A stretch of DNA of 24,121 nt from a virus. Positions 1,443 through 23,926 of this stretch are shown one piece after another. The stretch spans positions 1-24,121 of the IMG/VR virus record IMGVR_UViG_3300042429_000830; one strand, 5' to 3'. The notes below the pieces were generated by a model. The model did not search any database, had not been told where the DNA came from, and was given only the letters and a program-made list of their open reading frames with translations. Position 1 is the first letter of the stretch. Each line of letters opens with the position of its first letter. The position numbers and the translations under genes are program-made.

Positions 1443-2603
1443 TTATGCAATACAATCAAGACTAATTGTTTTTCCACAAGGGCCTGTAGTAACAAATGCA
1501 TTTAGTACTCCTTCTACAGCTGCTTGAGTTACAGTATCTGTATTAGGAATTAGAATTGTAGTTATAAACTTAGGTGTCCATTTTTGACTATTAGCATCTT
1601 CATTAGTAGATGTTGAATGGTGTCCTAGTGAATACTGGCAATATGATTTTTCACACTCTACTAGCAAATTTTTAGTTCTTGAAACTTCTAGTTGAGCATA
1701 GTATGGAGCTCCTGTAGTTTCAACTTCATTGTTCAAACCATCAAAACCTGTACCACCTGGCATTTCCATATACTCTTCCCACTGAAGATCTGCACCTATA
1801 CCTTTTGGCATAGCTAAAGCTGATAAATTTTGAGTTGCAAGTGTACTATTTGGTGCCCAACCTGAATTTAAAATAGTTTGGATAGAACCAATAGTGTATC
1901 TTTGCATAATGCTTTCAGCTGTAGGGAAACAACCACACTCTTGAGTATTAACTTTGAAAGTTATTGTAAATCCTGCAGCATAAGTAACTCCATTAACTGT
2001 AAGAGCACCCCCTGTAATATTAGCAACTGAAGCTACATATTTTTTTAGTAATTCATTTCCTTGAATTTCTGCAATGAATTTATTTCTCAAATCATTTACA
2101 TTTGGAGTATAATCACAATCACCATCACATGAAGGACAAACTTCTGATTGTACAGAAATTAGTTCTGTATGAAATCTATTTTCTGGGTAGAAAAAGTTTA
2201 ATGTTGGATCACGCAATTGAATACCAATTGAGTAATTAGTAGAGCAATCAATACAAGAGAAATAAAATGAAGCAGTATTTGAACTACCTGCTTGTGGAGC
2301 ATCTACATTAGCATAATCAATAAGACATGAAGAAAGGGTTTCTCCATTACTTACTCTTACTTTTTTAGACTTTGTAGCTTGACCAGTAACAACACCTACA
2401 CCTATTGCAATAAAAATTTCTTTTACTCCTACAACAGTAGAAGCATTTACTGCAGTATTAGTTTCAGCGTTAAAAAATCCAATTTGACCTGGAGCCAAAT
2501 TGTACCATTTGTTTACTGCATCGTACAAAGCTGTACCAGTTGTAACAATAGCAGCATTTCCTTTGGTTGGAAGGAAAATAGTTTTTTGAATTCTAGTTGA
2601 CAT
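1443..2603 (-). CDS. Probable virion structural protein (386 aa)
   Basis: 386 aa, abundant in Thr, Asn, Ala, Val and Gly, with cysteine clusters CPSCDGDC (about residues 153-160) and ECGCFP (about 222-227). No enzyme motif or membrane segment is visible. It is the last gene before the terminator at 1352-1387, downstream of the capsid and connector genes, and its codon use is less AT-biased than the small genes, like the major capsid gene, suggesting an abundant product. By analogy with crAss-like phages, where abundant auxiliary capsid or tail proteins are encoded beyond the capsid gene, an auxiliary capsid/decoration or tail protein is possible. I cannot assign which. The Cys clusters could bind metal. 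Confidence 0.5.
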   Translation of the reverse strand: MSTRIQKTIFLPTKGNAAIVTTGTALYDAVNKWYNLAPGQIGFFNAETNTAVNASTVVGVKEIFIAIGVGVVTGQATKSKKVRVSNGETLSSCLIDYANVDAPQAGSSNTASFYFSCIDCSTNYSIGIQLRDPTLNFFYPENRFHTELISVQSEVCPSCDGDCDYTPNVNDLRNKFIAEIQGNELLKKYVASVANITGGALTVNGVTYAAGFTITFKVNTQECGCFPTAESIMQRYTIGSIQTILNSGWAPNSTLATQNLSALAMPKGIGADLQWEEYMEMPGGTGFDGLNNEVETTGAPYYAQLEVSRTKNLLVECEKSYCQYSLGHHSTSTNEDANSQKWTPKFITTILIPNTDTVTQAAVEGVLNAFVTTGPCGKTISLDCIA

Positions 2604-2630
2604 AATTTATTTATTTAAAGTTTTTTAAGA

Positions 2631-3338
2631 TTATATTTTTGATATGTTTAAAATTTTATTTAATTGAGATTCAAAATCTATAGTGTTTCCGATATCTCTC
2701 ATTGCAATTAATACTGCAATATCTATTATTTTGTTTGCTTGGAATGTAGAGTCAATTTCTATGTCTCTTTGAACTGCTGGAGTTCCATTGGGTAAGTTAT
2801 AAGTTCCTCCTCCATTTAAAAAATCTACAGGATTACCTGGTCTTAAAGGCTTTCTGATATAAGTTAAAAATACTTTTTCTATATCAAAATCTTCATAATA
2901 AAGATATAATTTGTTTCCTGAAAGATCTAAATTTACTCTTTCAAAAGTAAATGAAGAATTAAACATAGGATCATTTACATATATATCATCTTTTTGAACA
3001 ATGTAATTTTTTATTTTCTTTTTATTTTCACATTGGTTATGTTTACACAAAGAATATGATTCTAAATATCTATAATAATCCAGAGGCAAATTTGCAGTAT
3101 AATACTCATCAGTTACTTTAGTGACAGGTATTTCTAAATCTTTAATTTCTAATTGCCTAATGTCATCTCTTCGCTTTTGATTTAACTCTAATTGCTCACA
3201 AATACTTTCAACATAAATTATATAGGCCTCAAATATGTACTCATCAATCTGAGGTATAAGAAAATTTGCATTTCTTAATCCATCTACTTTATTAGCGTGT
3301 TGTTTAAATTTATAGTGGGCTTCTTTTATAGAATACAT
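2631..3338 (-). CDS. Putative head-tail connector / ring protein (235 aa)
   Basis: 235 aa. Opens with a helical segment (IKEAHYKFKQHANKVDGLRN then LIPQIDEYIFEAYIIYVES) resembling a conserved N-terminus of small structural proteins in crAss-like and other Bacteroidota phages that stack below the portal. The middle is beta-rich and the C-terminus helical. Its start codon overlaps the stop of the upstream gene (TAATG, 3336-3340), indicating translational coupling. The position two genes after the capsid gene fits a connector or tail-adaptor role. The assignment is from recalled family resemblance and gene order, so it is tentative; another tail component is the main alternative. Confidence 0.4.
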   Translation of the reverse strand: MYSIKEAHYKFKQHANKVDGLRNANFLIPQIDEYIFEAYIIYVESICEQLELNQKRRDDIRQLEIKDLEIPVTKVTDEYYTANLPLDYYRYLESYSLCKHNQCENKKKIKNYIVQKDDIYVNDPMFNSSFTFERVNLDLSGNKLYLYYEDFDIEKVFLTYIRKPLRPGNPVDFLNGGGTYNLPNGTPAVQRDIEIDSTFQANKIIDIAVLIAMRDIGNTIDFESQLNKILNISKI

Positions 3339-4255
3339 TACTTCATCTTAGCTTTTAAAGCCTCCTCTAAAGTCAACAATAATGCAGAATTTTCTGGTTT
3401 AGATAAGAAGTCTACAATATGTATTGTGTCAGTAGCAAGAGTCTCTCCATTAAATAATACTTTTGTACTTTCTTTTCTTAATATTGCATATTGAAACAAC
3501 TGCTCTGTTAAAACTGTTAATTCTAATTTTGCTTTATTTTTAGGGTCTGATAATTCTAAGAATAAATCTTGAATAGCTGTTAGTGTTTCTCTAGAAGAAT
3601 TTTCTGTAATTTTAGAATAAAGTAAATCTTCTACAATAACTTCTTTTTCTTCACCTGTTAATTTTATTCCTAACGCTGTAGACATATTTTTCTTTTGAGT
3701 CTTAGTAAGTCCTTCAAATCTAGCATGTAGTTTACTAACTCTTTCTCTTTTAGTCTCTCTAACTATAGCATCTGCCTCTTCGTCTGCAATAATCCATTCT
3801 GCTGTTGGGTGTTTTGACAAATTATTTTCTCCCACAATTGTCATAGGGTCTGCAGTCATAATAGCATAAACTAATTCATCTAAAGGATTTCTTAAGTCTA
3901 ATATACTTATATCTCTTCCTAGTTTTGCCTTGCAATTTTTATTAGTAAAAAATGGATCTAATCTATTTGATGAATCTGCTTCTGAAATTTTTGCTCCAGT
4001 AATTTCATCATTAAATCCTAGTTTTTTTACTAAAATATTTATTTCTTCTTTAGTATATCTAGCATTAACAGGTCCTAAATTATATTGATAAGTTGCTTTA
4101 TCAAATCTAGGTCTAATAGTATTACTATTAGCTAAGAAGGCGTAAGTTTCTCCAATTTGTTTATAGGAGGGATCAATATTTACCTGCCAATGTTTATTTT
4201 TTAAAATATTAGGGTAAATCTTTACTTTTTGTGGTCGTGAGTGTGTGTTTGACAT
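3338..4255 (-). CDS. Hypothetical virion-cluster protein (305 aa)
   Basis: 305 aa, not recognised. The N-terminal half is mixed; the C-terminal half (about residues 150-305) is strongly helical and charged (repeated E/K/R/L with segments such as EEADAIVRETKRERVSKLHA). It contains no catalytic motif or membrane helix. It follows the major capsid gene across a terminator and a tRNA-like RNA, and is coupled to the connector-like gene through a one-base stop/start overlap, so the two are made together. A virion or assembly protein is likely from context only. Confidence 0.6.
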   Translation of the reverse strand: MSNTHSRPQKVKIYPNILKNKHWQVNIDPSYKQIGETYAFLANSNTIRPRFDKATYQYNLGPVNARYTKEEINILVKKLGFNDEITGAKISEADSSNRLDPFFTNKNCKAKLGRDISILDLRNPLDELVYAIMTADPMTIVGENNLSKHPTAEWIIADEEADAIVRETKRERVSKLHARFEGLTKTQKKNMSTALGIKLTGEEKEVIVEDLLYSKITENSSRETLTAIQDLFLELSDPKNKAKLELTVLTEQLFQYAILRKESTKVLFNGETLATDTIHIVDFLSKPENSALLLTLEEALKAKMK

Positions 4256-4294
4256 ATTTTTTAGTTTTTTTGTGTGTGTATACTTATGTTTAGT

Positions 4295-4346
4295 GTGAAG
4301 AATGGAGTTGAACCATTTCGAGTTAGATTCCTGTAATCTACTTCAC
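4295..4346 (-). ncRNA. tRNA-like element lacking a D-arm
   Basis: Read on the minus strand, 52 bases fold as a minimal tRNA. The acceptor-like stem is GTGAAG/CTTCAC (6 bp). An anticodon-like arm follows directly: TAGAT, loop TACAGGA, ATCTA. After six linker bases comes a T-arm AATGG, loop TTCAACT, CCATT. The T-arm segment GGTTCAACTCC fits the tRNA consensus GGTTCRANYCC exactly. There is no room for a D-arm, and the 7-base anticodon-like loop lacks U33, so it is unlikely to be a normal decoding tRNA. It sits immediately downstream of the capsid-gene terminator and upstream of 3338-4255. A processing signal, a decoy substrate for tRNA enzymes, or a decayed tRNA are possible; chance is the alternative. 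Confidence 0.45.
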
Positions 4347-4349
4347 TAT

Positions 4350-4380
4350 AAAAAAAGGGGTGATTAATGGGTTCACCCCT
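4350..4380 (-). terminator. Strong intrinsic terminator after the major capsid gene
   Basis: The minus strand has AGGGGTGA (4380-4373) pairing perfectly with TCACCCCT (4363-4356) around a 9-base loop, followed by T at 4355-4350. It lies 18 bases beyond the capsid gene stop. This would end the capsid transcript or reduce read-through into the connector genes. Confidence 0.9.
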
Positions 4381-4397
4381 TGAAACCCTCAAGGAAT

Positions 4398-5975
4398 TTA
4401 TCTTCCTCTCAATACTGCAGGGATTAGTTCCCCACACTTAGTAACATCTTTTACAAGGATACCAGCATCTTCCATTCTATGTACAGTCCAGAAGTCACCA
4501 GCATGAGACATTAGTGCACCTTGGCTATTTCCATAAGGGTTAGATAAACCACCTGTGTAACCATAAGCAACATCTCTTGAAGATTTCAAATAAGCAATGT
4601 TTTTACCAAAGCCATCACCCAAACCATAGTTTATAAATGTAAATCTTGAAGATTCTGCTGGATAACCATTCTCATCTAGAATAGTGTTGAAAGTTACATC
4701 ATCATAAGCTTTCATATGCATAACTGTCAATGAACCACCAAATTTCAATTTGTACTGTGTCCAAGGAGTTTCAGTATAAGACAATCCTGTTGGACCACCT
4801 GGTACCAATGAAGTTCCATCAGTTTTAATAAAATAATCTTTCATATCTTTGAAGAAACCTTGAGTTATTTGATTGATAGCCTCATCAAACAATCTTAGTC
4901 CTATTTCACCTGTCCACATTACAACATTACGTTGGTCATAAGCTACTCTACCAAAGAATATATCTTGCAAAAAGTCTTTAACTAGACCTATTGTAAAAGT
5001 GTTATAAAATTCTCTATAACCATCTTCTAGTATTTCTTGAAGACCTGGACCTTGGTGAACATAATAACCTGTAGACTCATCAACTACTGTAGAACTACTT
5101 CTTTGATACATCAAGTGAAGTTCTTTTTCCATTTCAAATTCTTTGTTGAATTTGATTTCAGCAACTGAAGTAATATACATATTACCTTTGTTTTTAGAAT
5201 TCATAGCAGTTGCAATTCTTTTTTGGAATGCATCTGTAGACTCACCTGCTTTTCTTCCTGCAAGAATCAACAAATCAGCTTCAGTCAAGTTACCATTCAA
5301 TTTTCTTTGAGCAGCATCTCCTGTCATTTGATATTGTTTTCTGAATCTAGAAAGACCAGAACGGAATTTAATTTTTCCAATTGAATCTACACTCATTGAA
5401 CCACCTTTTACAGAGCCTTCAGAATAAGTAGAAGCAAGTTTCATAATTCTTGATCCAATAACAAATAGATCAGTTGGTACAAATAGTGTAGGATCATCTG
5501 TCATCAATTTAACTGTGTAAATTGTTGCAGAACCATCTTTTTGACCAGCAGCCATAACACGCATGTTATATTTTTTGCTGTCAGTAAATACTAAAGTATC
5601 TCCTTCAACATAAGTACCTAGGTCAAGTTTAATTTTAAATGGTCTTTGAGCAATACCTTTAGTAGTATTACTAGGTTCAACATCCTCTACAATAAGAGAT
5701 GGTCTGTAACCTGATACCATAAATTCCCACTCTACTTTGTTTCCATCTACAGTAATAGTATCTGCACCTTGAGCTAGTTCAAGCAAAGGAGCTGTACCAT
5801 CAAATAAAGATTTCATTGAAGCTAGTTGGCCCATACCACCTAATGCTTCTGTGTCAGTTTTAATCAAACCTGCTTGGTAAAGATTATTTAGGTTGGTATA
5901 GTTCATACCCCAGTTACGATCTCCCGTAAGCATTGGAGCTTTGATAATACCAAATTTACTTTGTGATAATTTCAT
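4398..5975 (-). CDS. Major capsid protein (probable HK97-fold, crAss-like)
   Basis: 525 aa, close to the length of crAss-like major capsid proteins. The N-terminal part (KFGIIKAPMLTGDRNWGMNY; then DGTAPLLELAQGADTITVDG) and the C-terminal part (LSNPYGNSQGALMSHAGDFW, VHRMEDAGILVKDVTKCGEL) resemble that family as I remember it. The gene is visibly less AT-rich and uses more C/G-ending codons than its neighbours, consistent with very high expression. Order supports it: TerL, portal, an acidic scaffold-like protein 25 bases upstream, then this gene, then a strong terminator. No separate leader or protease domain is visible in this protein. A ClpP-like protease at 13787-14299 could act in head maturation. 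The identity is likely but rests on recall and context. Confidence 0.78.
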   Translation of the reverse strand: MKLSQSKFGIIKAPMLTGDRNWGMNYTNLNNLYQAGLIKTDTEALGGMGQLASMKSLFDGTAPLLELAQGADTITVDGNKVEWEFMVSGYRPSLIVEDVEPSNTTKGIAQRPFKIKLDLGTYVEGDTLVFTDSKKYNMRVMAAGQKDGSATIYTVKLMTDDPTLFVPTDLFVIGSRIMKLASTYSEGSVKGGSMSVDSIGKIKFRSGLSRFRKQYQMTGDAAQRKLNGNLTEADLLILAGRKAGESTDAFQKRIATAMNSKNKGNMYITSVAEIKFNKEFEMEKELHLMYQRSSSTVVDESTGYYVHQGPGLQEILEDGYREFYNTFTIGLVKDFLQDIFFGRVAYDQRNVVMWTGEIGLRLFDEAINQITQGFFKDMKDYFIKTDGTSLVPGGPTGLSYTETPWTQYKLKFGGSLTVMHMKAYDDVTFNTILDENGYPAESSRFTFINYGLGDGFGKNIAYLKSSRDVAYGYTGGLSNPYGNSQGALMSHAGDFWTVHRMEDAGILVKDVTKCGELIPAVLRGR

Positions 5976-7286: not shown

Positions 7287-9779
7287 TTATAAACTTTTAA
7301 TTTCTTTTTCTAATTTTTTATTTTCTAATTCAATTTTTTTTAATTTTTCAGCATCTATTTCAGATTGTAAACTATTATTTTGTTTTAATTTTTCAAGTTC
7401 AAGTAAATCATTTTCTTTGTTTTCATTAATATCATTAAGCATTGCAAACCTAGAAGAACTTATTTCTGCTGCTCTTAAAGTAGTAGCATTTTTATCATCT
7501 GCCATTTGTTTTTGAAACTGCATTCTTTGTTGCTCTACTTGCATTTGCATTTGTTGCATTTGCATTTGTTGTTCTTGTTGTTGTTGAACTGCTTGCTCAT
7601 CTCTCTTAATCTTATCTTCTTGAAGTCTATTTATAACATTTTTAATTTCTGTTGCATTTTCAGAAGTTAAAATTTCAGGAACTATTCTTAAGTCTCCACC
7701 TGAATTTTGTATAAGTGGTTGGATTAATCCTTTTAACTCATTGATTACCTGTGTATCTTTAAGTGTATTTGTAATATATACTTTATAGTTATAATTAGCA
7801 AAATCAACTAATTCTGTATTTAATGTAGCTACACTTAGATCTGATAAAATATAAGAAGCTTTTAATGGGTTATCTTTATATATTACTTTACAAATTTCTA
7901 TAAAGTTTTCAGTAGTTCTTTCTTTTACATAATTATGCATATAGAACCACTTTTCTGTTTGATTAGAAGATTGTATAATATTTTGTTGATTATTACCTAT
8001 AGATTCATAAGGAGATTGCATTCCTAGTCTGTTAGGATTATAACTCATAGCTTGAGTCATTTTTCTTTCAATATAATCTAACAAGTTTATTTTTTGTGCA
8101 ATGTCTTGAGTATGAGATAGATTTATACTTTTCCAATACTGAGGGTCAATACCCATGCTTCTTAAATCCCCATCTTTTGAAGCACTAATTAAAGCTACTT
8201 TAAATTTCTTAATATATGTCATCCATTGTGTAGGAGTAAGGTCTTTAGGTATTTGCTCTTGTAAACCTAATAGTATATTACCTATATCAGTTTTCATAAT
8301 CTCTATAATTTGATTTACAATCACATTATAAAGAAACTGCCAAGGTTTTCCTAAATCTGCAATAGATATTGGTGCAGAGTTTCTTGCAGAGTAAACTGTT
8401 CCTGTATAAGGGCCTCTTATTTGAAAAGGATTATCAATATCTCTATATTGATTAGGAATAGGTTCAATTTTCAAATAAATCTTAGGATTGGTAAAAATCT
8501 TATAACCATGCCAATATTCTGGTATCCATAAAATTTCTTGTTTAATATCTGTAGCTTTATTAAATACATAAGTCTCATCAGCAATACTTTTTTCTAAAGT
8601 ATTGTTTTCATTTAATCTATAAATATATTTAATTTTTTTCAAAGTCTTCCATACAATATGGGTTACTCTAAGTCTTCTAGTTTTATAATTATCATTATAA
8701 TCATCTTGCCAAGGATCTGCCCAAATAGGTGTATTTTCTGAATTTACACCATCCATAAGAGCATTAGGAATTACTTCCCATACTTTAGAATCTGAAGGAG
8801 AGTTTAAAGTAGATTCATATTTATCTAAAACTTCTCTTTCTTCCTCAGTAATAATATTACCAAAATGTTGGTATATTTCATAAATACTTAAATACTCATC
8901 ATAAGTACACCAATCTGCTTCGTCAAGATAATCAATATCTTTAGATTTAGAATAGTTAAAATATAATGGATTACAAGCTTTAATAATAGGTTTACCATTC
9001 CATTCTCCAGTCCAATAAATTTCTTCTCCTGTAATAATTACATCTTTCCAACCTTTATCAAATATACCTTTTAATCTATCTGTTCTTATATGATATTGTA
9101 AAATTTCATCTGTTAGTTTTTCTTCAGGCAATTTAAAATGATTTGCCATGTAAGTCTCTACCTCTACAGGAGTTATTCTTTGTAAGGTTTGCTCTATTTG
9201 AGCATCTAGACTTTGTTGTAATTCTTCTAGTTTTTTTAAATATTCAGGATCTAATGTAGGGTCCATATTAGCCCTAGCCTCTTGAATTTTTTTAGCATTA
9301 TCTGCTTTTATCTTTGTTAGTAATTGTTCTTTTACTATTTTTGAAGTATTTTCTATTAATAACTCTTTGCGAGTTCTTTGTCTAACAGCCTCACTATTAG
9401 AACTAGTTGTAACTACTCTTAAATTAAAAGGTCTTTTAATTTCTTCTCCTTCTAAATCATTTAACACATTTTGTAGTATAGGGAAATGAATATAGTCACT
9501 TTGGTTAAATTCCATTTCTGGAATTTCAACTCCTAGTTCTGTAGAAATAACTTTACCAGTATCTAAGTAACTATCAAAGTCCATTCTACCATTAAATAAC
9601 TCATAGTTTACTTTGAACTTTTCTTTTCTTTCATTATAGAAATTATATTGGTTAGCAAAAAAATCCATTTTTGCTCTAGCCCATTCATAATTATTTGCTA
9701 TCTTTTTTTTATAAGAATATCTATCAGTGCCTACTTGAGACAAAAGTACATCACTGACATAATTTTCATTTACTACCAT
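7287..9779 (-). CDS. Portal protein (830 aa, crAss-like size)
   Basis: 830 aa, encoded directly after TerL and before the scaffold and capsid genes. Portals of crAss-like phages are unusually large (around 800 aa), which fits. It would form the dodecameric DNA entry ring at one capsid vertex. Visible parts: a helical N-terminus, a central mixed region with aromatic motifs (WIPEYWHGYKIFTNPKIYLK), a long helical region, and a low-complexity Gln/Met-rich coiled coil at about residues 725-760 (repeats of QQ, QM, QMQ) before a charged helical tail. These could be the portal barrel and its internal extension. A TAATTTTG promoter box lies just upstream in the short gap after TerL. The main uncertainty is that I identify it by position, length and resemblance rather than by a diagnostic motif. 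Confidence 0.75.
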   Translation of the reverse strand: MVVNENYVSDVLLSQVGTDRYSYKKKIANNYEWARAKMDFFANQYNFYNERKEKFKVNYELFNGRMDFDSYLDTGKVISTELGVEIPEMEFNQSDYIHFPILQNVLNDLEGEEIKRPFNLRVVTTSSNSEAVRQRTRKELLIENTSKIVKEQLLTKIKADNAKKIQEARANMDPTLDPEYLKKLEELQQSLDAQIEQTLQRITPVEVETYMANHFKLPEEKLTDEILQYHIRTDRLKGIFDKGWKDVIITGEEIYWTGEWNGKPIIKACNPLYFNYSKSKDIDYLDEADWCTYDEYLSIYEIYQHFGNIITEEEREVLDKYESTLNSPSDSKVWEVIPNALMDGVNSENTPIWADPWQDDYNDNYKTRRLRVTHIVWKTLKKIKYIYRLNENNTLEKSIADETYVFNKATDIKQEILWIPEYWHGYKIFTNPKIYLKIEPIPNQYRDIDNPFQIRGPYTGTVYSARNSAPISIADLGKPWQFLYNVIVNQIIEIMKTDIGNILLGLQEQIPKDLTPTQWMTYIKKFKVALISASKDGDLRSMGIDPQYWKSINLSHTQDIAQKINLLDYIERKMTQAMSYNPNRLGMQSPYESIGNNQQNIIQSSNQTEKWFYMHNYVKERTTENFIEICKVIYKDNPLKASYILSDLSVATLNTELVDFANYNYKVYITNTLKDTQVINELKGLIQPLIQNSGGDLRIVPEILTSENATEIKNVINRLQEDKIKRDEQAVQQQQEQQMQMQQMQMQVEQQRMQFQKQMADDKNATTLRAAEISSSRFAMLNDINENKENDLLELEKLKQNNSLQSEIDAEKLKKIELENKKLEKEIKSL

Positions 9780-9798
9780 GTAATAATAATTTAATCTA

Positions 9799-9806
9799 CA
9801 AAATTA
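9799..9806 (-). promoter_or_regulatory. TAnnTTTG promoter box (TAATTTTG) for the portal gene
   Basis: An exact TAnnTTTG match on the minus strand, in the 35-base gap between the TerL stop and the portal ATG, 20 bases before the start codon. The predicted leader would be only about a dozen bases. It may allow portal and head genes to be expressed independently of the packaging genes. Confidence 0.45.
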
Positions 9807-9814
9807 AAAAAAAA

Positions 9815-12121
9815 TTAATAATTTATTAAAAGTTTATTTTTGAGCCTGTTATTATGCAATTCTTGATAAAAATCTAAACTAGTTTTTTTAACAATATTTT
9901 CTGTTTCCTTAATAACCAATTCTTTATCTTGTTCAATCCAAAGCATTAGTAATAAAAAAGCAGACACCCTGTCAAAGTTTCCTTTATCATTATATTGTAT
10001 AAGTTCTTCTAATAACAAGTCATCTTTAATTGTATCTAAGTTTCTGACAATTATTTCTCTATTAGTTCCATCTAATAACTCTTCAACATATTTCTTTTTT
10101 TCTTCTAACAACCATTGTTGTGCTAATCTTAAAGCATATTGTTTTAAAGGATTAGTCATAGGTACTCCTACATCATACTTCATTGTAGGGTCTTTTACAG
10201 CCTTTTCAATAATTTGTTTAGGTGTAGGGGCAAGTATATGATAGTTGCCTGTACGCATACAATAATTCTTAAAGTCAATAATGTTATTTTCAAACATTAC
10301 CTGTGCATTAAAATACTTAGCTGCTAAAACACATTGTAAATGAATATCTTCTGGCATATCATACCTTCCTACCCACCAAGCTACTAGTTCATTACCATTA
10401 CCATCTATTGTGTTATTAGATTTATAAACATATATAGCAGCCAATGATGTACCACCGCCCTCATCTTTAATAGGGTCATAAATTATTTTATATAAATTAG
10501 TAGGAATTAATCCTGCAGGTGGGTGTTCATAAAATTCCCAAGCACTTTGTAAGTTAGATTTTTGGTCATGAGGGAATCTATCAATAGGTTTTAAATCTGG
10601 ATTAGCTTTAAACTTTACTCCAAAAATATAATCTTTATCAGGAATTATATTTCCAATTGTTCTTAAATGTTTTTTGTATTGGTACTTATCATTATTTGCT
10701 TGGACTTCTCTGAGCATAGCAATAGGAAACTTATTACCTGTCCTAGATAAAAACATTTCTGAAGGCTTAATAGGCCTAGACATTATTAATTCATCATAAG
10801 CTACAGTATTATTAGCTCTTTTAGCTTTTTCTCTTTCATAATACTCATACTCTAATGCTTTTTCTATATTAGTATTTCCATTCTTATCTTTAAACATTTC
10901 ATTCGTATAATAAGCTGGTAAGAAAAATCCTATTTTATTTCTACCCTCATAAATATCATTAAAACTTAAAAAATCATAAGCTTCAGGATCTCTAAATATA
11001 ATCTCTGTTTCAATAACTTTGTCAACATCCCCTGATGTACCAATGTATAAAGAAGATCCAAATTTACCTGTACCCAAGTCTTGTGTGGATCTATTAGCTC
11101 CATGTATTGTAAGTAAACTGTCTTCCAAACCTACCTCTTCTATTACTATTACAGTATAACGCCCTCCAACAGCAGCTTGTTTATTTTCTTTAAAAGTCTC
11201 ATGTTTTAATAATGTTCCTGTACCTACAACTTTTGTAGTGTTTCCAATTTTTTTCTCATAATGAAATCTATATGGATTTTTAGAATTACCTACTTTTAAT
11301 GTTCCAGAACTTTGTCTAGAAAAAGGTGGAGGAAACATTTCTCTACCATCTGAGTATTCTCCTGGTAAATTATCTAGAGAATCTTTAAATTTATCTAGTA
11401 AATCTGAAGATTTAGATGCAACAGGTGCTCCACAAAATATTTCTACTTTATTTCTTTTAGCTAAAAAGTCTTCTATACTTTTTGCTCCATCTGTCAAATA
11501 CTCATGTTCTAATATAGCTGATGCCATAAAAGATTTACCACCCCCTCTAGATCCAAACAAGAATAAATTAGTAGAGTAGTTATCATATAAAGGTATACCT
11601 AAAGGCTCTTTATGTGTAGAGTTTAAACATTCTAAAGGATCTATATATTCTTTTAATGTACCATTTTCTTTATAACAATCTTCTGTTAAAGTCTCTAGTA
11701 AATGTAAAGGAATGTCAGCATTATTAGGATGCTTTAATTTTTGCTCTTTTAAATAAACTGTATAGTTAGAAGTATAATTAGGATCATTTTTAAATCCACT
11801 AAATCCTCTAGCTATAAACCATAAGTTCATTATAGTATAATTAATATCCCAAAGAAAAGGCCTAGATTTAATCCTTTGTTTTTTTATTGTAACCATCATT
11901 GTATGATAGTTAATAAAGTAATATAGTTGAGGAGGAATAAATCTATATCTTAATCCTTGGCTAGTTTCTTCTTTTCCCCAATAACCATAAATTAACCTAT
12001 TTAACTCCTCTGTCCAATATATTTCATAAGCAGAACTATTAGGATGTAAGTTAGGATGGGTTTTAATAAAATCTGAATTATTCTCTATTATAGGGAATAA
12101 TAAATCTGTATTTATTGTCAT
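9815..12121 (-). CDS. terL: Terminase large subunit (ATPase and nuclease)
   Basis: 768 aa packaging motor. The ATPase domain has a Walker A GSRGGGKS at residues 190-197, a Walker B VIVIEEVG at 324-331 with catalytic Glu 328/329, and a coupling motif YIGTSGD at about 359-365. The C-terminal RNase H-fold nuclease has the expected acidic triad: Asp549 in IIYDPIKDEGGG, Glu611 in VMFENN and Asp717 in NFDRVSAFLL. The protein hydrolyses ATP to drive DNA into the prohead through the portal and cuts concatemers. Its start overlaps the stop of the 85-aa gene upstream by four bases. No classical small terminase is recognisable; the 178-aa protein at 12879-13415 is one candidate. The N-terminal 180 residues are an extension of unknown role. 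Confidence 0.95.
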   Translation of the reverse strand: MTINTDLLFPIIENNSDFIKTHPNLHPNSSAYEIYWTEELNRLIYGYWGKEETSQGLRYRFIPPQLYYFINYHTMMVTIKKQRIKSRPFLWDINYTIMNLWFIARGFSGFKNDPNYTSNYTVYLKEQKLKHPNNADIPLHLLETLTEDCYKENGTLKEYIDPLECLNSTHKEPLGIPLYDNYSTNLFLFGSRGGGKSFMASAILEHEYLTDGAKSIEDFLAKRNKVEIFCGAPVASKSSDLLDKFKDSLDNLPGEYSDGREMFPPPFSRQSSGTLKVGNSKNPYRFHYEKKIGNTTKVVGTGTLLKHETFKENKQAAVGGRYTVIVIEEVGLEDSLLTIHGANRSTQDLGTGKFGSSLYIGTSGDVDKVIETEIIFRDPEAYDFLSFNDIYEGRNKIGFFLPAYYTNEMFKDKNGNTNIEKALEYEYYEREKAKRANNTVAYDELIMSRPIKPSEMFLSRTGNKFPIAMLREVQANNDKYQYKKHLRTIGNIIPDKDYIFGVKFKANPDLKPIDRFPHDQKSNLQSAWEFYEHPPAGLIPTNLYKIIYDPIKDEGGGTSLAAIYVYKSNNTIDGNGNELVAWWVGRYDMPEDIHLQCVLAAKYFNAQVMFENNIIDFKNYCMRTGNYHILAPTPKQIIEKAVKDPTMKYDVGVPMTNPLKQYALRLAQQWLLEEKKKYVEELLDGTNREIIVRNLDTIKDDLLLEELIQYNDKGNFDRVSAFLLLMLWIEQDKELVIKETENIVKKTSLDFYQELHNNRLKNKLLINY

Positions 12122-17550: not shown

Positions 17551-17564
17551 ATTTAAATTTTATG

Positions 17565-17572
17565 CAAAATTA
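17565..17572 (-). promoter_or_regulatory. TAnnTTTG promoter box (TAATTTTG) at the head of the leftward genes
   Basis: An exact match on the minus strand, followed by CATAAAATTTAAATATG, where the final ATG starts the 72-aa gene. It lies just downstream of the strong terminator at 17597-17640, so transcription of the leftward structural block probably begins here. Confidence 0.5.
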
Positions 17573-17596
17573 AATATTTTTTTTTCAACTAACAAT

Positions 17597-17640
17597 AAAA
17601 AAAAATACCAGCCTTTTCTAATTAAAGAAAAAACTGGTAT
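17597..17640 (-). terminator. Strong intrinsic terminator of the leftward non-coding transcript
   Basis: On the minus strand ATACCAG (17640-17634) pairs with CTGGTAT (17611-17605). Nested inside, TTTTCT (17631-17626) pairs... read as the complement AGAAAA/TTTTCT (17614-17619 with 17626-17631) around AATTAA. The hairpin is followed by nine T on the minus strand (17605-17597). No protein gene lies upstream of it on this strand, so it must end an RNA started within 17641-18225. Confidence 0.85.
17627..17638. repeat. 12-base direct repeat, copy 1 (GAAAAAACTGGT)
   Basis: Identical to 18002-18013. This copy lies in the terminator hairpin of the non-coding RNA and the other at its predicted 5' end, 375 bases apart. 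Either copy (ACCAG in the RNA) can pair with the same CTGGT arm of the terminator, so the RNA 5' end could compete for it. Confidence 0.6.
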
Positions 17641-18001
17641 ATATAAGTAAAATATTATGTATATAACTCTAACCCTTTAACTAATAAGTTAAATAAGTTC
17701 TTTTAAAGCATAGAAAGGTTAACCCAGACTTAACAGGCATCCCTTTATTTTAGTAAACTTAGTTTCTTTGTTCCTATTAAGTAGTTGGTTTATAAGTAAT
17801 CATATATTTCTACTTAGATTACCTACTATCCTGTATACATTAAAAGTAGAATTACTCTATTTAAACTTTTAATCTTCCTCTCCTTACCCTTCAGGTGAGC
17901 TTGTTATCCTGGGAGGTCCTACCTTATTCAAAACTATCTAGTGAAATCCTTACCAACCAACTTTTCAGTTCAAATCTCAGGGCACTAGAATTTGTCTCAG
18001 T

Positions 18002-18013
18002 GAAAAAACTGGT
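18002..18013. repeat. 12-base direct repeat, copy 2 (GAAAAAACTGGT)
   Basis: Exact second copy of the repeat at 17627-17638, located between the promoter box and the predicted RNA body. Confidence 0.6.
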
Positions 18014-18014
18014 G

Positions 18015-18022
18015 CAAAGTTA
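18015..18022 (-). promoter_or_regulatory. TAnnTTTG box (TAACTTTG) for the leftward non-coding RNA
   Basis: Exact consensus on the minus strand. A start about seven bases downstream would place the RNA 5' end near 18007, giving a transcript of about 400 bases ending at the terminator 17597-17640. No convincing -33 element is visible. Confidence 0.4.
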
Positions 18023-18225
18023 AGTAAAAAAAAGTTATTGATACCATATTTTTTAAAAATTTTTTTGGAGACCCCTTAAAATCTAAATTTTTTAAAATTT
18101 TTTTTAACCCCCTAGGTAAAATTGTTTTTGAAACTGGGTGCTGGAGTATCCCTCCCACCAAGCCCCAGCTGACTTCGGGATTTTGGAATAGTCCCACTTA
18201 TTATTAACAATTAAATTTTTCAATT
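18023..18225. other. Divergent intergenic region: A-tracts and a stable hairpin
   Basis: Between the leftward RNA and the first rightward gene. 18045-18112 holds runs of A and T (several tracts of 5-8) interrupted by short GC patches (GGAGACCCC, CCCCCTAGG), a pattern typical of curved DNA. At 18134-18168 CTGGG-GC-TGG pairs with CCA-GC-CCCAG, with one bulged base on each side and a 13-base loop, a stable stem in an otherwise AT-rich region. A shorter GGGA/TCCC stem lies at 18177-18195. These may form the leader of the 18226 gene, a promoter/operator region, or part of a replication origin. No direct evidence decides between them. Confidence 0.4.
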
Positions 18226-18618
18226 ATGCAATCAAATTCCAACACAACTGTAGTAGGCTCAGCCACTTACACACAAGTTGACACTCTTGTAGTGTCACCA
18301 ATTACTTGTCAGATAACTTCTAGCAAGGTAGTCCACTCTGAGAAAGATAACTCTGACACTCAGGTATTTGAGCTTGAATTCTTAGGGGAGTATAAAGGCG
18401 CAGGTATGCAGAAGGCTTATAGAAGATTAGGCCAAGGTATCACCAAGACTGGCGAAGCCTTTACTGTAGCACCTTTGAAGACTTTGGACAATTGTGAGAT
18501 TATAGTTACCAAGAGAGATTCTGATGGTACTGTATTCTTCTCTGTTAGAGGCAGAGCAAAGGATTTCACTGCTGAAGCTGCTGATGCTGCTGCAAGAGCC
18601 AAGAGTATCTTTGGCTAG
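18226..18618 (+). CDS. Abundant-looking 130-aa protein of unknown function
   Basis: 130 aa, no recognised family. Two or more beta-rich stretches (TQVDTLVVSPITCQITSSKV; DTQVFELEFLGEYKG; NCEIIVTKRDSDGTVFFSVR) and an Ala-rich helical C-terminus (FTAEAADAAARAKSIFG). An OB- or beta-barrel-like fold would be consistent, but this is inference. The gene stands out: base composition is clearly richer in G/C than all its neighbours, it is preceded by a structured leader and followed at once by a strong terminator, so it is a monocistronic unit. These traits match a very highly expressed early protein, for instance a nucleic-acid-binding protein. Stop codon is TAG, directly before the terminator. A 7-bp hairpin (TGACACT/AGTGTCA, 18279-18297) lies inside the coding start. 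Confidence 0.8.
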   Translation: MQSNSNTTVVGSATYTQVDTLVVSPITCQITSSKVVHSEKDNSDTQVFELEFLGEYKGAGMQKAYRRLGQGITKTGEAFTVAPLKTLDNCEIIVTKRDSDGTVFFSVRGRAKDFTAEAADAAARAKSIFG

Positions 18619-18622
18619 AAAT

Positions 18623-18650
18623 AAGGGGAGAAATCCCCTTGTTTTTTTTT
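18623..18650 (+). terminator. Intrinsic terminator after the 130-aa gene
   Basis: AAGGGGA (18623-18629), GAAA tetraloop, TCCCCTT (18634-18640), then G and nine T. It begins four bases after the TAG stop. A textbook GNRA-capped terminator. Confidence 0.93.
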
Positions 18651-18929: not shown

Positions 18930-19001
18930 CCTTTTTTCTCAAAACACATTATAAGCCTTTTGGTACATTATATAGCAAAATGTTTAAAAAGAGATAAGGA
19001 A

Positions 19002-19128
19002 TATGACAATATGTTTGTTTTAACTTGAGAACTACTAGTGAAAACTATGATGTGGTTTTGACAAAAACTGTAGTTAAAAATACTAATAAAAACTTTAATG
19101 ACTAGGAAAGTTTTGAGGTATTGTCATA
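19002..19128 (+). ncRNA. Candidate three-way-junction RNA upstream of the 115-aa gene
   Basis: A 10-bp closing stem TATGACAATA (19002-19011)/TATTGTCATA (19119-19128) encloses two 8-bp arms: TTTTAACT (19018-19025)/AGTTAAAA (19072-19079), and AAAACTTT (19089-19096)/AAAGTTTT (19107-19114) with a 10-base loop. Within the first arm further pairing (AACTAC/GTAGTT) is possible as an alternative. No gene lies here. It is followed 22 bases later by the conserved RNA motif at 19151-19202. Confidence 0.5.
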
Positions 19129-19150
19129 CTTATTTTCTTTAAAAAATAAA

Positions 19151-19202
19151 CCTGAGCTACAAGGGTTTTTCAGATTACACAGAAGCTAAGTGAAAGTAAT
19201 CT
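19151..19202 (+). ncRNA. Repeated structured RNA motif, copy 1
   Basis: CCTGAGCTACAAGG (19151-19164), seven variable bases, then a hairpin AGATTAC (19172-19178)/GTAATCT (19196-19202) with the 17-base loop ACAGAAGCTAAGTGAAA. Compared with copy 2 (19872-19922), the 14-base lead is identical and the loop differs at two positions, while the stem sequence is different yet fully paired. CCT/AGG in the lead can form a mini-stem exposing GAGCTACA, whose AGCT can pair with AGCT in the loop (a possible pseudoknot). The next gene starts 40 bases downstream. I do not recognise it as a known riboswitch or ribozyme. Confidence 0.65.
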
Positions 19203-19242
19203 ATATATTTAAAAACAGTTTTAAATTTTAATTTTATAACAA

Positions 19243-19590
19243 GTGGAACAATTAATTGAAGAAATCAGATTGACACAAAAAAAACTTTCTGATCTGCGTT
19301 CCCAGTTACATAAGCAAAATGATGGATTTTTATATCTAACATGCTTATGTTATTACCGCTCTTTTACCTATAAAACTTATACTAATAAGTTTTTAGTTCA
19401 AGAACTCTGTAATAAGTACTATGGTGATAATGGTATTGTAAATGTCTACACTACTAATCCTGACCATGGTATTGACACATGCGGAGACGTAAATGTTATG
19501 ACTCTTGAGGAGATACAAAATATTTCTAAAGAGGATATTAGCATGTCAGAAGCCGTATGTAACTGGATAAATGGCAGAAAATTTGAATAA
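19243..19590 (+). CDS. Hypothetical protein (115 aa), GTG start
   Basis: 115 aa. N-terminal amphipathic/coiled-coil segment (MEQLIEEIRLTQKKLSDLRS), then a Tyr/Cys-rich middle (YLTCLCYYRSFTYKTYTNKF) and an acidic end. The family is unknown. GTG at 19243 is chosen because an in-frame TAA lies six bases upstream and no ATG exists in the first third of the frame. The gene sits between two copies of the structured RNA motif, immediately downstream of copy 1. Its translation could be controlled by that element. Confidence 0.65.
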   Translation: MEQLIEEIRLTQKKLSDLRSQLHKQNDGFLYLTCLCYYRSFTYKTYTNKFLVQELCNKYYGDNGIVNVYTTNPDHGIDTCGDVNVMTLEEIQNISKEDISMSEAVCNWINGRKFE

Positions 19591-19638
19591 GCTTCAGAGC
19601 AGCTATGCTTGGTAACAGAAAATAGCAAAATAATTTAA

Positions 19639-19787
19639 TGCACCATAACTCACTTCCCAAGGGTGAGCAGTTGTAATAGACCAGAAAGTGAACCACCATA
19701 CTGGAATAAATAGTAAACTATTACAACTGAGTGCAGAGGGAAATAAAAACTTAACAATCCTAAGTTGTTGAAGGCACTTAGTTCCCT
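19639..19787 (+). ncRNA. Candidate multi-helix RNA downstream of the 115-aa gene
   Basis: The gap 19591-19950 has no gene. It contains a junction closed by TGCAC (19639-19643)/GTGCA (19731-19735). Inside are CTCAC (19649-19653)/GTGAG (19663-19667) and, directly abutting, a perfect 12-bp helix CAGTTGTAATAG (19668-19679)/CTATTACAACTG (19718-19729). A following arm is AGGGAA (19737-19742)/TTCCCT (19782-19787), enclosing AACTTA/TAAGTT (19748-19753 with 19761-19766). The conserved motif copy 2 follows at 19872. The order (junction RNA then motif) repeats that at 19002-19202. Confidence 0.55.
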
Positions 19788-19871
19788 AATAATTTACGAA
19801 TATTGAATTAACAACAGTTCTTTATAGTATTTTATTAGGGTTTCAGTGTAAAACACAATCCATTATTAAAT

Positions 19872-19922
19872 CCTGAGCTACAAGGATCAAGAACTACTAC
19901 AGAAGCTTAGTGAACAGTAGTT
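19872..19922 (+). ncRNA. Repeated structured RNA motif, copy 2
   Basis: CCTGAGCTACAAGG (19872-19885), six variable bases, then a hairpin AACTACT (19892-19898)/AGTAGTT (19916-19922) with the 17-base loop ACAGAAGCTTAGTGAAC. Stem bases differ from copy 1 at several positions but pairing is kept, the sign of a selected structure. The hairpin is followed by TTT. A small membrane-protein gene starts 28 bases downstream. Confidence 0.65.
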
Positions 19923-19950
19923 TTTATAATTAATATTAAACAATATAACT

Positions 19951-20058
19951 ATGTTAGGAATTATAGTAATTTTCATAATGGTCTATGGATCATATTGTGC
20001 TAAAAAAGCACACCAAGAAATAATTAACAACAAAAAACTTTTTAAATGCCAGATATAA
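19951..20058 (+). CDS. Tiny membrane protein (35 aa)
   Basis: 35 aa: MLGIIVIFIMVYGSYCAKKA followed by a polar tail ending KKLFKCQI. One N-terminal membrane helix (residues 2-16). Start ATG is 28 bases after RNA motif copy 2, and its end overlaps the start of the next gene by 13 bases, supporting translation. Function unknown. Confidence 0.5.
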   Translation: MLGIIVIFIMVYGSYCAKKAHQEIINNKKLFKCQI

Positions 20059-22918: not shown

Positions 22919-23926
22919 ATGAACAGATTACAAGAATTAAAAAATGTATTAAAAGTACAAACCTCTTCTTATGACCAATGGAGAATGTTTGCATTTATAA
23001 TAAGATATATTACTAAATTTAACAATATTTCTTATTACACAGATAATGGTAATGTATACATTACTAAAGGAAATGCTAACTCTTACCCTTGTGTAGTAGC
23101 TCATATGGATACTGTTCACCCTATTGTAGAAGATTTATCATTATTAACTATAAATGAGAACATTACAGGATTTAATAATGTTACTATGACTCAAACAGGT
23201 GTAGGTGGTGATGACAAAGTAGGTATATTTATAGCCTTACAATGTTTAAATCATTTTGACAATATTAAGTTAGTCTTTTTCAGAGATGAAGAAGTTGGTT
23301 GTCAAGGATCTTATCTAGCAGAAATAGACTTTTTTAACAATGTTAATTTTGTTTTACAATGTGATAGAAGAGGTAATAGTGATTTTATTGTTAATGCAGG
23401 AAGTGTAGAATTATCTAGTAAAGACTTTCAAAATGACATTATAACTGTAATTAAAAAATATGGATATTCTTTTAATAATGGTATGATGACAGATGTTATG
23501 GCTTTAAAAGAAATTGGTTTACCTGTCTCTGCAGCTAATATTAGTTGTGGGTATTACAATCCTCACATGGAAAATGAGTATGTTAATATTCCAGATGTAA
23601 TGAACTGTTTAGATATGGTTATAAATATCATTGCTAGTTTTGGACATAAATCATACTATCATGTATACAATACAACAGTGTCTAAAAATAAAGACAAAAC
23701 CTATAATTATAATTTTTTAAAAACTAATTATGATATTTTAGAAAATGATTATATTTTTGACACAACAGATTCTTATACATTTAACAAATCAGAAGAAATG
23801 GATTATAAAAAAGAATATTATTATTGTAAAAATTGCTTAACTTATGAATATAAAAGTAGTTTGCACAATGATTTATGTGATTTTTGTATGAAATATGAAA
23901 CTGAAAAAAACAATTGTTTTCTTTAA
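22919..23926 (+). CDS. M20/M42-type zinc metallopeptidase with C-terminal zinc ribbon
   Basis: 335 aa. The metal ligands of the M20/M28/M42 peptidase clan are all visible: His62 and Asp64 in VVAHMDTVH, bridging Asp98 in GVGGDDKVG, catalytic Glu124 with Glu125 in FFRDEEVGCQGS, Asp149 in QCDRRG and His216 in NPHMENEYVN. Such enzymes remove amino acids from peptide ends or hydrolyse acylated substrates. The family's lid/dimerisation domain is short or missing (the core is only about 245 residues). The tail carries Cys303, Cys306, Cys320 and Cys323 (YCKNC ... LCDFC), a zinc-ribbon-like four-Cys knuckle not usual for the family. The target is unknown: host peptide, cell-wall peptide or phage protein processing are all possible. 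No signal peptide, so it acts in the cytoplasm. Confidence 0.85.
   Translation: MNRLQELKNVLKVQTSSYDQWRMFAFIIRYITKFNNISYYTDNGNVYITKGNANSYPCVVAHMDTVHPIVEDLSLLTINENITGFNNVTMTQTGVGGDDKVGIFIALQCLNHFDNIKLVFFRDEEVGCQGSYLAEIDFFNNVNFVLQCDRRGNSDFIVNAGSVELSSKDFQNDIITVIKKYGYSFNNGMMTDVMALKEIGLPVSAANISCGYYNPHMENEYVNIPDVMNCLDMVINIIASFGHKSYYHVYNTTVSKNKDKTYNYNFLKTNYDILENDYIFDTTDSYTFNKSEEMDYKKEYYYCKNCLTYEYKSSLHNDLCDFCMKYETEKNNCFL

Follow-up and report, generated by a model that had tools for sequence, protein, structure and literature searches.

The window analysed here, a 24-kb stretch of viral DNA (24,121 nucleotides), derives from a crAss-like phage contig: its capsid protein resembles those of Flavobacterium FpV and the cr-type crAss phages, and its terminase falls into the crAss-type family phrog_6681. 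Both genes lie in a minus-strand cluster that is separated by a divergent strand switch from a plus-strand cluster (Table 1), and the latter is headed by the two copies of the motif described in this study. As originally predicted, an identical 14-base sequence, CCTGAGCTACAAGG, is present at 19151-19164 and 19872-19885; the match is exact, and no third site was found in the window with up to three mismatches allowed. The gapped pattern GAGCTACA-N10..35-GAAGCT likewise occurs twice in the window, against 0.01 occurrences expected from shuffled sequences. Behind a 130-aa gene, an intrinsic terminator-like hairpin with a T-run is located at 18617-18646; the transcript that carries the motif therefore probably begins 3′ of this hairpin.

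A multi-helix region had been noted upstream of the motif, and structured non-coding stretches were indeed found 5′ of both copies. The second of these (about 280 nt and strongly structured) matches no Rfam family; one string within it, AATAATTTAATGCA (19629-19642), is also present in the leader of the motif copy from a Prevotellaceae MAG (L103:601-614). Both copies had been placed shortly upstream of small genes. This is true of copy 2, which precedes a 35-aa frame with its ATG at 19951, but not of copy 1, which is followed only by a GTG-started ORF (19243). Elsewhere in the window, a gene for a metallopeptidase-like protein (Peptidase_M42; phrog_4191) occupies 22919-23926 of the plus strand, and a search of the window for tRNA and tmRNA genes returned none.

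Table 1. Features of the window that relate to the two motif copies
Feature	Position	Strand	Details
Terminase	9815-12121	-	minus-strand cluster of the window
Capsid	4398-5975	-	minus-strand cluster of the window
Divergent gene-strand switch	17551-18225		minus-strand genes up to 17550, plus-strand genes from 18226
Structured non-coding stretch 5′ of copy 1	18996-19135	+	11-bp closing helix, z -2.8; neighbour outside the conserved motif
Copy 1, P1 hairpin	19151-19164	+	stem CCT/AGG, 19151-19153/19162-19164 (3 bp); loop GAGCTACA, 19154-19161
Copy 1, P2 hairpin	19172-19202	+	stem AGATTAC/GTAATCT, 19172-19178/19196-19202; 17-nt loop ACAGAAGCTAAGTGAAA, 19179-19195
Copy 1, putative kissing helix	19155-19187	+	AGCTAC 19155-19160 with GAAGCT 19182-19187; loop1-7/loop2-4 covariation
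Structured non-coding stretch 5′ of copy 2	19588-19870	+	z -4.1 for 19588-19935 (copy 2 included); neighbour outside the conserved motif
Copy 2, P1 hairpin	19870-19887	+	stem ATCCT/AGGAT (5 bp); loop GAGCTACA, 19875-19882
Copy 2, P2 hairpin	19889-19925	+	10-bp stem AAGAACTACT/AGTAGTTTTT, 19889-19898/19916-19925; 17-nt loop ACAGAAGCTTAGTGAAC, 19899-19915
First ATG frame 3′ of copy 2	19951-20058	+	35 aa, membrane-like

The bases CCT and AGG that flank GAGCTACA form a further stem (P1) that was overlooked in the original prediction. The architecture that emerges is P1 (3 to 6 bp; loop GAGCUACA), followed after a short linker by P2 (6 to 10 bp; 17-nt loop of consensus ACAGAAGCUWAGWGAAM). The 17-base loops had been read correctly in both window copies, whereas the 7-bp stem assigned to P2 stands for copy 1 and not for copy 2, in which it is 10 bp long. 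By folding energy, copy 1 does not stand out (z 0.04) and copy 2 does so moderately (z -1.9), and the case therefore rests on comparative evidence.

Further copies in related phages had been proposed as a test of the motif, and they exist: 13 other viral contigs carry at least 14, and Bacteroidales genome contigs another 2 (at least 16 beyond the window), for a total of at least 18 copies in 16 records and 16 distinct sequences. Pattern scans of viral contigs and one scan of genome contigs, followed by a stem check in exactly the same register, yielded the 13 viral contigs and one Prevotellaceae MAG contig; a covariance model added two more, one a second copy in the phage contig G026 and the other in a further Bacteroidales genome (G935). 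Every copy retains the two-hairpin register despite altered stem sequences. Covariance model R1 gives copy 2 a score of 66.5 bits and copy 1, which was used in building the model, 70.6 bits. The best false match in prokaryote genomes (L387; 33.6 bits) lies antisense within a long protein-coding frame and was rejected as chance, as were Prevotella matches below 30 bits (L291-L307), and a BLAST search with the motif against the INPHARED phages returned chance matches only.

It might be argued that the motif is nothing but a chance repeat, or a DNA-level repeat without RNA function, since there are just two copies in the window and the folding energy of copy 1 is weak. Against this, the same architecture is found in at least 18 copies from distant phages; under model R2, scores are 49.5 to 65 bits for the viral copies and 51 bits for the two from genome contigs, compared with a maximum of 23 bits in about 1 Mb of unrelated control contigs; and some 36 chance matches to the loop pattern have a P2 of at most 4 bp rather than the 6 to 10 bp of real copies. 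The covariation described below already refutes this explanation, and we give it practically no weight.

Pairing extends to 98.6% of stem cells in seven sequences, compared with 62% in shuffles and 34 to 39% in slid registers, bearing in mind that stem pairing formed part of the selection filter for most copies; when the kissing helix is included, the figure for 15 sequences is 93.4%. RNAalifold independently recovered the same two hairpins from 15 sequences, and each of the nine pairs that it predicted shows a double change. When all column pairs of the 15 distinct sequences were scored (cut-off, at least 95% canonical with change on both sides), exactly nine passed, eight of them in the P1 and P2 stems and one between position 7 of loop 1 and position 4 of loop 2 (loop1-7/loop2-4), and all nine are among the proposed pairs. 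The stem changes between the window copies had been taken as compensatory, with covariation in an alignment as the proposed check, and the strong stem covariation seen across copies agrees with this, bearing in mind that the subtypes may reflect few evolutionary events behind the covariation.

The loop-loop pair was outside the selection: the last scan left loop1 positions 6 and 7 and loop2 positions 4 and 5 free, and the covariance model contained no pseudoknot. Loop1-7/loop2-4 pairs in all copies, as C-G in seven and U-A in eight of the 15 sequences, and the 16th copy (G935), which was obtained with the pseudoknot-free model, has a U.G intermediate. Loop1-6/loop2-5 likewise covaries (G.U with U-A, or A.A), and complementarity extends from AGCU/AGCU to AGCUxY:RxAGCU, or about six pairs (in copy 1, A-U, G-C, C-G, U-A, A.A, and C-G). 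Because loop1-7/loop2-4 covaries, the AGCU/AGCU pseudoknot of the original prediction appears, from sequence comparison, to be a kissing interaction of the two loops; the pairing is thus supported, with a covarying extension. An alternative kissing register (loop1 GCUA with loop2 UAGU) does not hold in G028 or in the MAG copy. We also rejected a larger conserved RNA that takes in the neighbouring structures (the flanks beyond P1 and P2 are unconserved, and several copies lie 8 to 30 nt from flanking genes) and a role for P2 as a terminator (a T-run follows it in some copies only).

A crAss-type large terminase was found in 12 of the 14 viral records, and the same search in 14 control genomes gave no match. 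In all 12 of these crAss-type records, motif and terminase are on opposite strands and about 5 to 15 kb apart, with the motif roughly 0.2 to 2.5 kb past the divergent gene-strand switch and before the first to third gene of the cluster. In the crAss-like phages that have been studied, the terminase and structural genes are late, whereas genes for regulation and replication belong to the early or middle class, and it is the virion polymerase that transcribes them (PMC10136315; PMC8375218). Because the terminase and structural genes of these relatives are late, we infer that the motif-bearing cluster would comprise early genes, which fits the original suggestion of a motif common to early genes.

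Some of these records have features of their own. In the 168-kb contig G028, seven in-frame TGA codons in the terminase frame (128070-129902) suggest TGA recoding, as is reported for large crAss-like phages. In G430 (2140-5241) and G428 (8168-11591), the terminase match falls into two separated pieces, suggestive of an intron or intein. The crAss-like phage contig G026 carries a gene for a GroEL-type chaperonin (L308:4211-5782).

Promoters of the N4 virion RNA polymerase are short single-stranded DNA hairpins with 3-nt loops, and the motif might be a DNA hairpin promoter of this kind, with hairpins in the template and transcription by a crAss-like virion RNA polymerase starting just downstream. 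Both are hairpins 5′ of phage early genes, the early programme of crAss-like phages is N4-like (PMC10136315), the motif heads the cluster opposite the terminase, and the virion polymerase has been reported to transcribe the early genes of crAss-like phages (PMC10136315; PMC8375218). Moreover, a terminator-like hairpin ends just 5′ of P1 in G001 and G431, leaving little space for a promoter in between, a point that also counts against the leader reading favoured below. The details of the motif fit poorly, however. The two hairpins have loops of 8 and 17 nt, and DNA with a P1 of 3 bp and a loop of 17 nt would fold weakly; the stems contain nine G-U against two A-C pairs, a bias that points to sense-strand RNA; and no conserved sequence is seen downstream of the aligned copies at a possible start site. 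Nor was the motif found in the close relatives of the window (capsid 87 to 92% identical), whose tested regions beyond the strand switch are mostly non-homologous or hold other genes, or in 16 named crAss-like phages (phi14:2 and crAss001-like phages among them), all of which are expected to share the polymerase type. Given its absence from close relatives, the element is dispensable or replaceable, which counts against the leader reading as well. Finally, one motif-bearing Bacteroidales contig contains no recognised phage gene. We therefore regard a promoter of this type as improbable, and consider it highly probable that the element acts as RNA, in the sense orientation.

The genes that first follow the motif are mostly unrelated (dCMP deaminase-like, DUF6948, and lipoprotein-like among them), which suggests that the element serves the transcript and not any single gene. 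In G434 and G435 (L335:8053-8566 and L345:3286-3682), the flank, the motif and a 63-aa second gene are shared; as the first gene differs (147 aa versus 108 aa) and the next is identical, genes appear to have been swapped behind the element in an apparent cassette exchange.

A leader that controls translation of the next start codon, either alone or with a protein or ligand in the manner of a riboswitch, must also be considered. P2 ends 16 to 26 nt before the ATG in nine viral copies, a spacing that fits translational control and counts against the reading we prefer, and invariant loops would suit a binding pocket. In the other copies, the distance is about 40 to 400 nt, some of them preceding another structured stretch, and a spacing that ranges from 16 to about 400 nt makes strict control of a single start codon less likely. 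The functionally related downstream genes that are typical of riboswitches were not found here. The guanidine-II riboswitch (mini-ykkC) offers the closest likeness in form, in that it consists of two small hairpins whose conserved loops are in mutual contact, but it differs in its loops and genes. A scan with the Rfam 15 covariance models at the gathering cut-off, known riboswitches and ribozymes included, gave no match over any copy, in keeping with the earlier impression that the motif resembles neither. Translational control thus seems to us unlikely, if worth keeping in mind.

Another explanation is that the kissing hairpins serve in RNA processing or stability, by protecting or marking a 5′ end in a polycistronic early mRNA or by being (self-)cleaved. 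Both G026 copies are intercistronic and directly follow stop codons, and structured non-coding RNAs adjoin the motif in several phages, as this explanation would have it. Conservation, on the other hand, sits in the loops and not at the stem junction, which is unusual for a cleavage site, and no known Rfam ribozyme was matched; we consider this explanation rather unlikely. Among the adjoining structures, the stretch directly behind the G001 motif (L003:11280-11450, minus strand) is closed by a helix of some 14 bp without mismatch (GTTTACGATGAC/GTCATCGTAAAC), lies in a 246-nt region of z -6.0 and is possibly a separate phage non-coding RNA. In G432, a known DUF2693-FD RNA (RF02926; 69.8 bits; L366:1269-1317) shares the leader with the motif and precedes it by about 185 nt. 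That small Rfam family resembles the motif in having two short inner hairpins, but it has another consensus and an outer stem that encloses them, and its Rfam model misses the motif. The early genes of crAss001 include a TROVE protein (PMC8375218), and a link of the TROVE-protein/Y-RNA kind was rejected: none of the 14 viral records with the motif has a TROVE domain, compared with two of nine that lack the motif.

We favour a cis-acting leader RNA of early transcripts that is bound by a trans-acting factor, a reading to which we assign a probability of roughly 0.45. A constant position, variable genes, few copies and invariant loops suggest that the element serves the early transcript and is not a gene-specific riboswitch. 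P1 and P2 would fold first, after which the loops would kiss (loop1 AGCUxY with loop2 RxAGCU) and so expose a conserved unpaired surface comprising G1 and A8 of loop 1 and, in loop 2, ACA and about UAGUGAAA. It is reasonably likely that a trans-acting factor recognises the loops, and this factor would bind the exposed surface. That the effect is exerted at the level of transcription is a more tentative proposal, made by analogy: the nascent RNA may bind an RNA polymerase (that of the host or of the virion) or an elongation factor, in the manner of put and nut RNAs, and the bound machinery would then transcribe the early operon processively. Whatever the mechanism, the motif probably helps to switch the early genes on.

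The put sites of HK022 are two adjacent hairpins and the lambda nut site is a hairpin; both lie near the start of a phage early operon, with one or two per genome. The motif, with two hairpins at the head of a probable early cluster, resembles the put and nut RNAs of these lambdoid phages and differs in that its loops are conserved and kiss, its hosts are Bacteroidota, and no sequence similarity was recognised. The count of downstream terminators gives no support to put/nut-like antitermination: in most genomes, terminator-like sites are about as frequent in sense as in antisense, and none occurs within 5 kb downstream in the window, although clear downstream terminators are present in G001, G028 and G026.

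In the human gut, crAss-like phages rank with the most abundant viruses; they are widespread elsewhere too, and, to our knowledge, the control of their early genes is little understood. With no Rfam match, and only chance occurrences of the core string in a limited search of the literature, the motif is a candidate for a new class of structured RNA among phage leaders. At its boldest, and still speculatively, this would be a kissing-loop leader RNA class that passes between crAss-like phages and other elements of Bacteroidota and acts on the RNA polymerase (host or giant virion) of the early operon, for processivity or timing. If this is true, it would be an independent analogue of put and nut outside the lambdoid phages. 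The element is compact and well defined, has a clear structural model and heads the putative early cluster of crAss-like phages, and it comes with two mutually testable pairing claims, one on the stems and one on the loop-loop contact. As such, it is a candidate new Rfam family and a candidate portable expression part for Bacteroidota, and it opens a direct test of what recognises the early transcripts or promoters of crAss-like phages.
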